NCBI GenBank assembly: GCA_017473435.1
Contig: JAFULG010000003.1
Location: 62,001 to 126,000, forward strand
Length of the DNA: 64,000 nt
Origin: Clostridia bacterium
GTDB taxonomy: Bacteria > Bacillota > Clostridia > Oscillospirales > Acutalibacteraceae
Reading direction: 5' to 3'
Part shown: piece by piece, positions 19,511 to 57,332 of the stretch
How positions within the stretch are numbered: the stretch's first letter is position 1
Layout: each line of letters opens with the position of its first letter
The notes under the pieces: model-generated
Databases searched by the model: none
What the model was told of the DNA's origin: nothing
Seen by the model: only the letters and a program-made list of their open reading frames with translations
Program-made: the position numbers and the translations under genes

Positions 19511-19866
19511 TTTGTTTGCCTCCTAATTAAGAATTAGTAGGGCGTTGCTTATTTTTTACGCTCGCCCGGGTGTTTGTAGCCCGGTTATTTTAAAAACCGG
19601 AAACTTGATATTTCCGGTCGTCAGCTCAAATAAGCACAGTTCACCCCATACGCTGTTTAAGTCCGAAGCGCAGAATTCCCCTAAGGAGAACCGCACCCGA
19701 CCTTAACGCAAGATAACAGCGTTAAAGATGAAATATAGATCGCCCGGTTTTAAATCGGACATACTCCGCGGAAATTTCCTGCCTCAGAGGACAGCCACCT
19801 CCCGCATCATCGCATATCGTTTAGGTTATGTGAAGACAGAGTTATACCCAAACCCGTTTCACATGC
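19511..19866 (-). promoter_or_regulatory. Long structured 5' leader of the S10 operon
   Basis: The distance from the inferred transcription start (about 19866) to the rpsJ start is about 355 nucleotides and holds no credible gene. Direct observations: a perfect hairpin TTAACGC...GCGTTAA (19703-19725); a closing stem GGTCG (19702-19698) with CGACC (19620-19616); a terminator hairpin at 19592-19617; and two alternative stems after it (CCGGTT with AACCGG, 19581-19600; CCGGG with CCCGG, about 19566-19584). The closing stem uses bases of the terminator's 5' arm, so the two cannot form fully at once. Control by a ribosomal protein such as L4 is an inference. Confidence 0.55.
19592..19617 (-). terminator. 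Attenuator-like terminator inside the S10 leader
   Basis: On the minus strand CCGGAAA, a seven-base loop, then TTTCCGG and TTTTT. It has all parts of an intrinsic terminator, yet lies about 80 bases upstream of rpsJ in the same direction as the operon, inside the leader. This fits premature termination control. Confidence 0.6.
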
Positions 19867-50624: not shown

Positions 50625-51899
50625 ATGAAAGCACCACTTGCAGACAGAATAAGACCGCTTACGATTGATGATATGGTAGGTCAGCAACACCTGCTCGGCG
50701 AAGGTAAAGCGCTTCGCAATATAATCGAATCGGGCGAGCTTCCGAATCTTATATTTTACGGACCCTCGGGCATAGGCAAAACAACCCTTGCTTCGATTAT
50801 CGCCCGTAAAACAAACCGAAAGCTTCACAAGCTCAACGGCACAAGCGCCGGCACCGCGGATATCCGCGCAATAGTAAATGAGCTTGACACCCTTGCCGCA
50901 CCCAACGGCATACTGCTTTATCTTGATGAGATTCAGTACTTCAACAAAAAGCAACAGCAGACTCTCCTTGATTATATCGAAAGAGGAGAAATCACTCTCA
51001 TTGCCTCCACAACAGAAAACCCTTACTTTTACATACACGGGGCAATCCTTAGCCGTAGCACGGTTTTCGAATTCAAGAGCGTTACACCCGAGGATATTAT
51101 CCCTGCGGTAAACAGAGCCTTCAACTTCCTTGAAAAGGAAAAGGGCGTAATAATCAATGCCGATGACAGGACTATGCTTCACATTGCACGCTCCTGCGGC
51201 GGCGATGTAAGAAAGGCAATGAACAGCGCTGAGCTTTGTGTTCTGAGCACTCTCCCTGACGAAAAGGGTGAAATCAACATCACCTTTGAAACCGCCGATG
51301 AGCTGACACAGAAAAGCGCTATGAAATATGACCGCGAGGGTGACGAGCACTACGACATACTTTCCGCCTTTCAGAAGAGTATGCGCGGCTCCGACGCCGA
51401 CGCAGCTCTTCACTACCTTGCAAGGCTCCTTGAAGCAGGCGACCTACCGAGCGCAACAAGGCGCCTACTTGTCTGTGCAAACGAGGATGTGGGTCTTGCC
51501 TATCCCATGATTATACCCATTGTCAAAGCAGCGGTTGATACTGCGCTTATGGTAGGACTCCCCGAGGCAAGGATTCCCCTTGCAAATGCCGTTGTGCTTG
51601 TATGCAACAGCCCCAAGTCAAATTCCGCCTACCTTGCCTATGATATGGCGGCGGCAGACATAAGAAGCGGCAACTCGGGACCTATCCCCCGTCAGCTTCA
51701 GAACAAGCATTTTGACGGTGAGGACAATCAGAACAAGGGGCAGTTTTACAAGTACCCTCACGATTATCCGAATCATTGGACAGCACAGCAATATCTGCCC
51801 GATAAGATTAAGAACAGGACTTATTATGTTCACGGAGAGAATAAGACCGAGCAGGCGGCAAAGGAATATTGGGAGAAGGTGAAGCACGATTTCAAATAG
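50625..51899 (+). CDS. rarA: Replication-associated recombination ATPase RarA/MgsA
   Basis: AAA+ ATPase of the clamp-loader family that acts at stalled forks. About 424 residues from the ATG at 50625, after AAAGGTGA. LADRIRPLTIDDMVGQQHLL at the start; Walker A GPSGIGKTTLA; Walker B LYLDEIQYF; sensor ASTTENPYF; ARSCGGDVRKAMNSAE; and the C-terminal NSAYLAYDMAAADIR and PIPRQLQNKHFDGE. The last codons and TAG stop sit in the first hairpin of the array that follows (loop CAAATAG). Confidence 0.94.
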   Translation: MKAPLADRIRPLTIDDMVGQQHLLGEGKALRNIIESGELPNLIFYGPSGIGKTTLASIIARKTNRKLHKLNGTSAGTADIRAIVNELDTLAAPNGILLYLDEIQYFNKKQQQTLLDYIERGEITLIASTTENPYFYIHGAILSRSTVFEFKSVTPEDIIPAVNRAFNFLEKEKGVIINADDRTMLHIARSCGGDVRKAMNSAELCVLSTLPDEKGEINITFETADELTQKSAMKYDREGDEHYDILSAFQKSMRGSDADAALHYLARLLEAGDLPSATRRLLVCANEDVGLAYPMIIPIVKAAVDTALMVGLPEARIPLANAVVLVCNSPKSNSAYLAYDMAAADIRSGNSGPIPRQLQNKHFDGEDNQNKGQFYKYPHDYPNHWTAQQYLPDKIKNRTYYVHGENKTEQAAKEYWEKVKHDFK

Positions 51900-52082
51900 A
51901 AATCGTGCTTCAATGAAATAAATCCCTAAGGGGATTTATGAAATATGCCTTACGGCATATGAAATAGCTACGCTATGAAATGCACTGCGGTGCATAGGGA
52001 TTTATTTTATTTCACATTTTGCCTATGGCAAAATATTTCATAATCCGTCAGGATTATTTCATATTGCGAAGCAATATTTCAT
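51881..52082 (+). repeat. Hairpin array 1, upstream of the four-helix-bundle gene
   Basis: Eight hairpins of different sequence: GAAGCACGATTT/AAATCGTGCTTC (51881-51911, spans the rarA stop), AAATCCC/GGGATTT (51920-51937), ATGCC/GGCAT (51945-51958), ATAGC/GCTAT (51964-51976), TGCAC/GTGCA (51981-51994), ATTTTGCC/GGCAAAAT (52016-52034), TAATCC/GGATTA (52041-52056) and ATATTGC/GCAATAT (52061-52077). Loops are 3-7 bases. The linker between hairpins is ATGAAAT in the left half and ATTTCAT (or TTTCAC) in the right half. A longer-range pairing (51916-51928 with 51995-52007, 13 bases) encloses hairpins 3-5. Thirty bases separate the array from the gene start, so it is probably transcribed. Confidence 0.8.
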
Positions 52083-52111
52083 TAAAACAACCTGACACAG
52101 GAGCTAAAACG

Positions 52112-52450
52112 ATGAAAGAAAACAAACTTGTAGATTTATCAATGGATTTCGCAGTAGACATTCTTATGTTGTGCGAAACTATAAAAGGACATTATTCTTC
52201 TACCAACCAACTTGAACGCTCGGCAACCTCAATCGGTGCAAACATTCATGAAGCTAACTATGCTCAAAGCAAAGCGGACTTCATCTCCAAATTGAAGATA
52301 TCATTAAAGGAATGTTACGAATCAGAATTTTGGTTAGAGCTTTTTATAAAAGCCGAATTGTCAGACAAAGAAAAACTGCACAATTTATTGGTTAAATGCG
52401 GAACAATCCGCCGTATACTCATTGCATCAATTAACACAGCAAGCAAATAA
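52112..52450 (+). CDS. Four-helix-bundle protein (S23/bIVS, TIGR02436-type), copy 1
   Basis: 112 residues from the ATG at 52112 (AGGAG upstream); the frame extends to 52019 only through the hairpin array. MKENKLVDLSMDFAVDILML, then ERSATSIGANIHEANYAQSK, DFISKLKISLKECYESEFWL and a last helix ending ILIASINTASK. The S-x-G-x-N-IxEA/HEA core with FxxKL is typical of the four-helix-bundle proteins encoded in 23S rRNA intervening sequences and of Avd accessory proteins. No rRNA or reverse transcriptase is nearby. Helices 1-4 are all predicted. A paralogue lies at 56641-56994, also behind a hairpin array. Confidence 0.85.
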   Translation: MKENKLVDLSMDFAVDILMLCETIKGHYSSTNQLERSATSIGANIHEANYAQSKADFISKLKISLKECYESEFWLELFIKAELSDKEKLHNLLVKCGTIRRILIASINTASK

Positions 52451-56640: not shown

Positions 56641-56994
56641 TTATTTCATATTCTCCTTTGCAGTTCTGCAAGAAGCTATCAACATAACTCGTAATGATGA
56701 GCATTTGGCGGAAAGCTCTTTATAAGTAGGCTCGTCTATATAATCGGTTCTTCGCAGCAATTCAAGCCAATAGCCAGTTTCTTTTGCTTCCTTTAAAGCG
56801 ATTTCGAGCTTGGAAATAAAATCCTTTTTACCGTGTGCGTATTGTGCCTCGTGAATATTGGCACCGATACTTGTACCGCTTCTTCCAATCTGCTCATGAA
56901 CAATAGATTCACGGTTTGCCTTCAGATGCTTCACAAGATTTATAATATCAACGGCAAAATCCATTGAAAGCTCTACAAGCTTATTTTCCTTCAT
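56641..56994 (-). CDS. Four-helix-bundle protein (S23/bIVS, TIGR02436-type), copy 2
   Basis: 117 residues, start after GGAGGAT. MKENKLVELSMDFAVDIINL, EQIGRSGTSIGANIHEAQYA, DFISKLEIALKEAKETGYWL and LRVMLIASCRTAKENMK. The first ~17 residues differ from copy 1 at one position, while the middle and C-terminus diverge, so they are paralogues rather than a recent duplication. It lies downstream of hairpin array 2 with a promoter between array and gene. No neighbouring rRNA, RT or transposase. Confidence 0.85.
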   Translation of the reverse strand: MKENKLVELSMDFAVDIINLVKHLKANRESIVHEQIGRSGTSIGANIHEAQYAHGKKDFISKLEIALKEAKETGYWLELLRRTDYIDEPTYKELSAKCSSLRVMLIASCRTAKENMK

Positions 56995-57017
56995 AAGACA
57001 ATCCTCCTTTTTTTATT

Positions 57018-57046
57018 ATCATAACACAAAATCTGATACAATTCAA
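57018..57046 (-). promoter_or_regulatory. Promoter for four-helix-bundle copy 2
   Basis: Minus strand TTGAAT (57046-57041), 17 bases, TATGAT (57023-57018). The -35 box directly abuts the last CATCAT-type unit of the array. The start codon is ~24 bases after the -10 box. Confidence 0.6.
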
Positions 57047-57215
57047 TGATGCATCGCCTTATGGCGATATGATGCTATGCTGTCGCATAGTGATGTTGCT
57101 CGTTATCCCTCGCAATGATGCGATGTTTGCCAAAATCAATCAGCGAAGCGTCATCATCAGGCATAGCCGACATCATCAGCGTAAGCGACATCATTTGCCG
57201 AAGGCAAACATCATT
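57047..57215 (-). repeat. Hairpin array 2, upstream of four-helix-bundle copy 2
   Basis: Plus-strand coordinates: ATCGCC/GGCGAT (57053-57068), CTATGC/GCATAG (57075-57090), TTGC/GCAA (57096-57115), three short hairpins of shared form CA-GC..GC-G (about 57141-57150, 57158-57169, 57177-57187) and TTTGCC/GGCAAA (57194-57208). The linker is ATGATG or TGATG on the left and CATCAT on the right. A 10-base pairing GATGTTTGCC (57122-57131) with 57203-57212 spans the right half and competes with the last hairpin. In gene orientation the linker again runs ATGATG first and CATCAT last, the same mirrored plan as array 1. Confidence 0.75.
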
Positions 57216-57259
57216 CAAAAACAAAAATCCTTCGCTTAAGCGAAGGATTTTTGTTTTTG
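57216..57259. terminator. Terminator of the tRNA genes, 22-bp perfect palindrome
   Basis: CAAAAACAAAAATCCTTCGC then TT, followed by its exact reverse complement: 44 bases, 22-bp stem with no loop bases. It directly follows tRNA-Glu, overlaps its encoded CCA end and gives T-rich sequence on both strands, so it should terminate in both directions. It abuts the outer edge of hairpin array 2. Confidence 0.8.
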
Positions 57260-57332
57260 GTGACCCGGACGGGAATCGAACCCGTGTTACCGCCGTGAAA
57301 GGGCGGTGTCTTAACCGCTTGACCACCGGGCC
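57258..57332 (-). tRNA. tRNA-Glu (anticodon TTC), CCA encoded
   Basis: The acceptor stem pairs GGCCCGG with CCGGGTC (one G-T). D arm GTCAAGCGGTTAAGAC, anticodon arm CCGCC-CTTTCAC-GGCGG with TTC, T arm CGGGT-TCGATTC-CCGTC, discriminator A and genomic CCA. Body 57261-57332. Confidence 0.95.

Follow-up and report, generated by a model that had tools for sequence, protein, structure and literature searches.

An inverted array of hairpins and constant 7-nt linkers upstream of an IVP/S23 gene in a Clostridia genome, a candidate minimal mobile element

The window analysed here is a 64,000-nt stretch from the genome of a Clostridia bacterium (GenBank assembly GCA_017473435.1, contig JAFULG010000003.1, positions 62,001 to 126,000 of the forward strand). 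At window positions 51880–52082, between rarA and a gene for a four-helix-bundle protein of the IVP/S23 family, lies an array of hairpins joined by a 7-nt linker. The linker is inverted in the middle of the array. The features of the locus are as follows.

51880–51912, no strand: hairpin H0, with a 14-bp perfect stem and the loop AAATA; the rarA stop codon lies inside
51911–51986, plus strand: match to Rfam Gut-1 (RF01706), 55.5 bits (gathering score 50), model positions 1–77
51913–51919, plus strand: linker 1, ATGAAAT
51918–51939, plus strand: hairpin H1, whose 5' arm alternatively pairs with the centre at 51995–52007
51938–51944, plus strand: linker 2, ATGAAAT
51943–51960, plus strand: hairpin H2
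51959–51965, plus strand: linker 3, ATGAAAT
51964–51976, plus strand: hairpin H3
51975–51981, plus strand: linker 4, ATGAAAT
51980–51995, plus strand: hairpin H4
51995–52007, plus strand: centre, which can also pair with the H1 5' arm (long-range stem)
52009–52015, minus strand: linker 4', ATTTCAC, inverted
52016–52034, plus strand: hairpin H5
52030–52100, minus strand: second, opposite Gut-1 match, 46.6 bits, under the cut-off
52035–52041, minus strand: linker 3', ATTTCAT
52040–52057, plus strand: hairpin H6
52056–52062, minus strand: linker 2', ATTTCAT
52061–52077, plus strand: hairpin H7, which includes GCGAAGC
52076–52082, minus strand: linker 1', ATTTCAT
52099–52103, plus strand: AGGAG, the likely ribosome-binding site of the IVP gene
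52112–52450, plus strand: IVP/S23 four-helix-bundle gene (PF05635, TIGR02436), 112 aa

The array consists of seven hairpins, H1–H7, and a flanking eighth hairpin, H0, as verified in the window sequence. The initial annotation had described eight hairpins with differing arms in about 200 bases, a constant linker flipping from ATGAAAT to ATTTCAT in mid-array, and a 13-base inner pairing of 51916–51928 with 51995–52007. All three are present, with refinements. H0 is bounded by linkers on one side only, and occupies the slot where many arrays elsewhere have a terminator-like hairpin. One inverted linker copy is ATTTCAC (52009). The 13-base pairing is contained in that of 51912–51928 with 51995–52011, which is 94% complementary. 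The 7-nt linker shares its outer AT pairs with the stems, and thus its unpaired core is GAA/TTC.

The significance of the array was evaluated with a detector that counts intervals bordered on both sides by a constant 6-mer around a hairpin. The window array scores 6. Among 2000 dinucleotide shuffles, 1490 score 0, 509 score 1 and a single one scores 2. When the window was scanned in 749 frames of 340 bp, a score of at least 3 was seen in four frames, starting at 51681–51936, and all of them overlap the array. Repeats in the downstream flank of the IVP gene are not above background. A CRISPR-like array was considered and rejected: CRISPR arrays have direct repeats of about 23–50 nt and unique spacers, whereas here the linkers are 7 nt long and inverting, and the spacers are hairpins.

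The downstream gene encodes an S23/bIVS-type protein, as had been annotated. Its scores are 80.4 against a curated cut-off of 33.8 for PF05635, and 94.5 against 24 for TIGR02436. These profile matches name no catalytic domain in the protein. The structural model has four helices with a mean pLDDT of 95. In a Foldseek comparison, the predicted fold resembles the solved S23 proteins 2RLD and 2GSC, which have five chains each. A weaker match (TM 0.73–0.80, 14–17% identity, E 0.04 or worse) links the modelled fold to Avd (4DWL/8UB7), the accessory protein of diversity-generating retroelements (DGRs). A Xanthomonas S23 protein is summarised as a ring-shaped homopentamer in the accessible part of PMC4990558.

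Is the array linked to the gene in other genomes? The first set of IVP genes contains 87 genes, 83 from 27 related genomes and four from this genome, with flanks of up to 640 bases scored on each side. A hairpin score of at least 3 is seen upstream of 16/87 and downstream of 0/87, and a score of at least 2 upstream of 24/87. In the tree of the 87 IVPs, which has few columns and many open forks, all 24 arrays scoring at least 2 fall within one clade of 38 rows (support 100/99). At this score, no hairpin arrays were found at the IVP genes of the sampled 87 that lie outside the clade. Most sampled IVP genes are thus devoid of hairpin arrays, and the rule describes this clade.

The second set was collected by a genome scan with an alignment of 13 clade proteins, and comprises the best 80 of 571 loci, from Clostridia, Oscillospiraceae and similar. 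It has no identical genes in common with the first set. The 169 loci contain no duplicates and one near-duplicate pair. A hairpin score of at least 3 is found in 42/80. For 64 of the 80 loci with full flanks (16 were left out for short flanks), the best 6-mer reaches at least six copies in either orientation at 48/64 upstream flanks, 1/64 downstream flanks and 0/64 far-upstream stretches. The corresponding numbers for the first set, with all clades included, are 27/72, 3/72 and 2/72. These facts indicate that the link between array and IVP is not chance, and that inside one IVP clade its direction is from gene to array. The initial annotation had set enrichment over random genes as support, and arrays lacking at most homologous genes, or equally common away from them, as a sign of chance. 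The outcome is mixed. Upstream arrays are enriched inside one clade, and most IVPs across the family have no hairpin array (16/87 with a score of at least 3). Solo arrays do exist, and only one of about 10 Gut-1 places in this genome is by an IVP gene; the direction from gene to array holds.

The linkers are near-uniform inside each array and vary among loci: TGAAAT, GAAATC, CAATTC, ATGAAT, CTTCAC, ATGATA, ATATCG, AGTTAT and others. Among the 169 loci, 90 have a clear two-way linker and could be compared. In 69/90 of these arrays, the counts of forward and inverted linkers are equal or one apart. Linker similarity correlates with protein identity (Mantel r 0.476), while permutations have a mean of -0.001 and a standard deviation of 0.05, and 0/5000 are as high. 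For protein pairs with at least 60% identity, 58–65% have five or six linker bases in common; for pairs below 50%, the proportion is at most 7%.

The unit had been left unmatched to any named system. The first half of the array is in fact a member of Rfam Gut-1, and half-arrays elsewhere in the genome match the same model. In this genome 13 Gut-1 matches are found in about 10 places, one of which adjoins an IVP gene, and up to 34 matches are seen in a single genome. Gut-1 was listed by Weinberg et al. as a likely noncoding RNA, and, in the accessible part of that report, from human gut sequences only (PMC2864571). Compared with this description as a noncoding RNA, Gut-1 is here half of an inverted unit tied to an IVP gene, with evidence pointing to DNA. 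Gut-1 is present in 19/20 genomes with a placed clade IVP (median 14) and in 7/19 others (median 0; p 1.4e-4), where 18 of 105 IVP rows could not be placed, so that some of the other genomes may have a clade IVP. Inside the genus only, the comparison is between 14 and 10 genomes (p 0.004).

Four half-arrays of this genome (L001, L004, L007 and L013) have a common end motif near GGTCTGCGACGC(T/A)ATTATAA. When GGTCTGCGACGC was searched in six genomes, four copies were found in this genome (G000) and two in G002. The half-arrays sharing this end may be a separate non-autonomous family.

Fourteen arrays follow a strict 4+4 TGAAA/TTTCA plan, and their hairpins can be compared by position. Each hairpin position has 10–13 different left arms. 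Complementarity is 3.9–6.4 for a hairpin's own arms and 2.6–3.7 for arms swapped between arrays. Similarly, the H1 5' arm and the centre have 7.46 in their own arrays and 4.6 when swapped. This pairing is at least 7 in 11/14 arrays, while pairings of the H1 5' arm with H5, H6 and H7 reach 7 in 0, 2 and 0 of the 14. At the level of sequence, the hairpins are homologous by position and maintained by compensating changes. This supports the proposal of selection on structure and linker. Another proposal, that a snap-back copying process had created the diverse arms, was rejected because the hairpins are homologous by position across species and their arms covary.

The initial annotation saw no clear promoter between array and gene. 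This is true of the window, where the best match to TATAAT in the spacer has two mismatches. Neither a promoter nor a T-tract was seen around the window array, and therefore read-through from rarA is possible there. It does not hold for all arrays: in 28/84, the spacer before the gene contains an exact TATAAT, compared with 9/84 shuffled spacers and 6/147 shifted stretches. With one mismatch allowed, the numbers are 59/84, 46/84 and 35/147. On the other side, a hairpin with an A-run and a T-run in its stem ends just 5' of the first linker in 10/14 strict arrays. A looser terminator test (an arm of at least 8 within 75 nt) is passed by 48/83 compared with 8/219 controls, although it may count an array hairpin where the first linker was missed. 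With a terminator-like hairpin before and TATAAT after, such an array would belong to neither transcription unit. The arrays also show a site preference after tRNA genes. A tRNA gene is found within 250 bases 5' of the array in 39/77 cases, compared with 1/213 control stretches.

Are the hairpins formed in DNA or in RNA? Stem pairs in 81 arrays are Watson-Crick in 2442 of 2479, a share inflated by the choice of stems by complementarity; the rest are 11 G.T, 6 A.C and 20 other mismatches. The comparison of G.T with A.C as a strand test was dropped since these mismatches are too few (11 vs 6 of 2479), and loop polarity was used instead. In the first half of the arrays, 67 loops are TNC/TNNC and 4 are GNA/GNNA; in the second half, the numbers are 11 and 66 (Fisher 3.6e-25). 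Other loop types number 17 in the first half and 62 in the second. GNA-type loops therefore switch strand between the halves, from minus in the first to plus in the second, and no single transcript would have one loop type in both. C(GNA)G is an unusually stable loop of DNA mini-hairpins. Loop polarity and the rarity of G.U pairs are more in line with DNA hairpins than with one folded RNA.

A structured RNA could still be considered, in which the array is transcribed and folded into a multi-branched structure that binds IVP or regulates the gene, similar to an RNA partner of Avd. A nested linker-to-linker fold, a chain of four-way junctions, is conceivable on paper. The Gut-1 match above the gathering score, the publication of Gut-1 as a noncoding RNA, the arm covariation with the long-range H1 pairing of at least 7 in 11/14 arrays, and the possible read-through from rarA in the window, where the spacer before the gene shows no promoter, are all consistent with this explanation. 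In DGRs, judging by entry titles (8UB7 and others), Avd itself belongs to a ribonucleoprotein reverse transcriptase. The loop polarity flip, the few G.U pairs, and the terminator-like hairpin before and TATAAT after the array in many homologs argue against it, and it is unlikely.

The sites of several arrays were compared with related genomes. The solo half-array L007 (G000:C71) appears as a clean insertion of about 125 bases, and 5/5 relatives have both flanks only a few bases apart. This fits the earlier suggestion of a mobile element. At the rarA site, restricted to loci that could be placed by script, G002 (RarA stretch 93% identical) is array-free up to the contig end 167 bases on. G015 (95%) has CAGTAGT heptamers together with an apparent array remnant that uses a different linker. 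No array was seen in the stretch inspected in G003, G008 and G006. The C-terminus of RarA is KVKHDFK in this genome (window 51885–51899) and KIKK in G015. With these extra codons and the stop inside H0, insertion may have altered the end of RarA. In Dolichospermum, an IVP cassette with heptamers lies between helicase and methyltransferase genes. Ten related records (H30–H39) match the flanks of the cassette over a shorter stretch. Two of these plasmids were read, and in them the helicase and methyltransferase genes are 65 and 24 bases apart without IVP.

These sites bear on another explanation, that the array is only the control region of the IVP gene, bound by IVP for autoregulation, and no mobile element is involved. 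An operator would account for an array just upstream of a likely promoter and for a linker that tracks the protein. It would account poorly for solo arrays away from IVP genes, for up to 34 Gut-1 matches per genome, for a clean insertion without the gene, and for the repeats that flank the gene on both sides in other clades (below). It is improbable.

In other clades, tandem heptamers are seen at many IVP genes, and the window linker is also 7 nt long. IVP genes of Cyanobacteria, Spirochaetes, Bacteroidetes and Bacillota tend to have heptamer repeats inverted across the gene. Plasmid IVP loci were collected by tblastn (26 records, 24 analysed), mostly from Nostoc and other cyanobacteria, plus Treponema, Monoglobus, Bernardetia and Chlorohelix; part of the plasmids are mutually related. 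A 7-mer occurring at least twice upstream, with its reverse complement at least twice downstream, is found at 20/24 of these loci and at 0/48 shifted controls, and the best of 20 shuffles gives 1/24. An example is TAATTCG x4, the IVP gene and CGAATTA x4 in Nostoc and Dolichospermum. By the same criterion, 11/16 loci from a viral collection (including two near-duplicate pairs) are positive compared with 1/28 controls, and phylum-wide Bacillota loci give 7/25 compared with 0/50.

The period was also seen in base autocorrelation of the flanks, examined at lags 2–15. Peaks appear at lags 7 and 14 in the plasmid flanks (0.481, 0.451 vs 0.260, 0.261), in other-clade Clostridia (0.364, 0.338 vs 0.249, 0.247) and in Bacillota (0.371, 0.347 vs 0.271, 0.277). 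The hairpin clade has no peak (0.279 vs 0.254), as expected if hairpins space its heptamers. Six Bacillota loci were checked with Rfam. Four of them (two being near-identical) are located within 23S rRNA, and one is located within RNase P RNA. At the IVP loci within these RNA genes, degenerate heptamers flank the gene on both sides. The cyanobacterial heptamer repeats are known as STRR, and they have been reported inside RNase P RNA in cyanobacteria.

Further observations were made at these loci. In L297 (1229–2003), an RNase P RNA gene is interrupted by an IVP gene with heptamer-like flanks, and the RF00010 match spans the insertion. IVP genes are also present in CRISPR loci of cyanobacterial plasmids, in the order cas2-IVP-cas1 (L244 1024–3115, L248 1102–2858) or between csx2 and cas1 (L254 1–3324). 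Cyanobacterial and Chloroflexi IVP cassettes are found in defence-like loci (L155, L151, L161, L253 and L255, one annotated drmD/PglX), flanked by helicase and methyltransferase genes or by DUF1156 and Swt1/HEPN genes. IVP adjoins XisH/XisI or XisI genes in L153 (2202–2938) and L247 (2006–2341); co-occurrence with XisH/XisI is also mentioned in the accessible part of a heptamer-repeat paper (PMC4679880). In L153 (1891–2190), CGACTT is repeated 35 times in 300 bases directly 3' of the Nostoc IVP gene.

The array could alternatively be a selfish or host-tolerated palindromic repeat, similar to repetitive extragenic palindromes (REPs) or miniature inverted-repeat transposable elements (MITEs), spread by other machinery with IVP as a passenger nearby. 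Solo arrays do outnumber gene-linked ones in this genome, and no catalytic domain is named in IVP. The association of gene and repeat in several phyla and the clade-specific repeat sequences are opposed to a passenger, and this explanation is very improbable. In REP/BIME/REPIN-RAYT systems, short hairpins on a constant foot occur in inverted pairs and together with a linked gene. The window unit resembles them in its hairpins, inverted pairs and linked gene. It differs in that the constant part is the 7-nt linker and the arms differ within the array, rather than a constant foot on similar palindromes. Its linked gene, which matches PF05635 only, is a four-helix bundle and no Y1/HUH transposase; the other nearby genes were scanned in part.

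On balance, the array and the gene probably constitute one minimal mobile element, an 'IVP element', in which the Avd-fold IVP/S23 protein recognises a clade-specific 7-nt repeat. The repeats would be the two ends of the element, in inverted orientation. In other IVP clades, these repeats tend to form simple heptamer tandems that flank the gene on both sides. In the window clade, both inverted halves lie upstream of the gene, with heptamers alternating with stable DNA hairpins. It can be supposed that a pentameric IVP ring binds several of its own heptamers at once and thereby holds the inverted ends together. The hairpins of the window clade might keep the heptamers single-stranded or spaced for binding. 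The recognised form might be DNA, as extruded or single-stranded hairpins with GNA loops. Host or neighbouring enzymes could then copy the complex, or insert it, beside hairpin-rich sites. Such machinery would act in trans, because the unit encodes only IVP. Solo arrays could be considered as non-autonomous copies.

Several facts weigh against this reading, besides the inflated Watson-Crick share. The concordance of linker and protein is equally expected from joint inheritance of gene and array, and is not proof of recognition. At 16/64 loci of the second set the repeat count is under the threshold, exact inverted pairs are seen in only 7/25 phylum-wide Bacillota loci, and Gut-1 matches are still found in 7/19 genomes without a placed clade IVP. 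A strict terminator test (a perfect arm of at least 6 with TTTT at the end) is passed by only 8/81 compared with 3/287, the T-run being often within the stem or broken. The solo array L012 is shared and is not an insertion difference: G015 has two hairpins at the same place where G000 has four, which implies gain or loss of whole units. In the other relatives, one flank of this site is matched in G002 and G005, and none in G003 and G008. Site comparisons are between species, so that target duplications are unreadable, and loss of an ancestral copy would fit too.

The window unit shares its protein family and repeat length with the intervening sequences (IVSs) of 23S rRNA, which are inserted in helix tips and have inverted ends. 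In Coxiella, up to three tandem GACAGAT heptamers reportedly precede the S23 ORF of the IVS, and the origin of IVSs is described as unclear, in the accessible part of PMC4990558. The window unit differs: it follows rarA rather than lying in rRNA, it has hairpins between its heptamers, and both inverted halves are upstream instead of complementary terminal repeats on either side of the S23 ORF. No rRNA was matched in the window at the Rfam gathering score. The unit falls outside the definition of a 23S IVS. Heptamer tandem repeats (cyanobacterial STRR, TAACTGA, GGGAATC) have in common with it a 7-nt unit and a sporadic, intergenic occurrence, and the cyanobacterial plasmid IVP genes studied here are flanked by heptamers. 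For the TAACTGA heptamers, no evident transfer mechanism is given in the available text of PMC4679880. Within their accessible parts, neither this paper nor PMC4692102 names a mechanism or an IVP partner. In word searches of an open-access library, no paper was seen joining IVP generally to heptamer repeats or Gut-1; the nearest is the Coxiella IVS paper.

Gut-1, the intergenic heptamer repeats (cyanobacterial and other) and the IVSs of 23S and RNase P RNA might then be the ends, solo relics and RNA-gene-resident forms of one mobile superfamily. It would move without encoding a transposase or reverse transcriptase. Its 7-nt repeat would be read by a pentameric Avd-fold protein, with both changing together, and the element would settle at hairpins, either beside or within them, for example at tRNA terminators and rRNA helix tips. 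DNA-hairpin ends would have evolved in the window clade. This broader proposal has about an even chance of being right. It is wide in scope and testable. For heptamer repeats, 23S IVSs and Gut-1 alike, the accessible parts of the sources give no known mechanism or partner, and a common protein family with a 7-nt border repeat makes one testable hypothesis for all three. It points to mobile elements whose only protein lacks a known catalytic domain. A further caution is that a motif catalogued as a structured RNA might be a DNA element. The initial finding is confirmed and is larger than was reported. The link of array and gene, the selection and the mobile-element reading are retained; the snap-back source of diversity and the lack of a match to a named system are not.

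A second array-plus-IVP unit is present in the window at 56641–57259, although its detector score is only 2. Its features, with the adjacent tRNA gene, are as follows.

56641–56994, minus strand: second IVP gene (PF05635/TIGR02436)
57046–57214, minus strand: second inverted array, linker ATGATG/CATCAT
57217–57259, minus strand: terminator-like hairpin between the tRNA gene and the second array
57261–57332: tRNA gene beside the second unit

The whole genome contains four PF05635 matches, one of them with an internal stop. Elsewhere in the window, an S10-Clostridia ribosomal protein leader (RF03136) is located at 19740–19818 on the minus strand.

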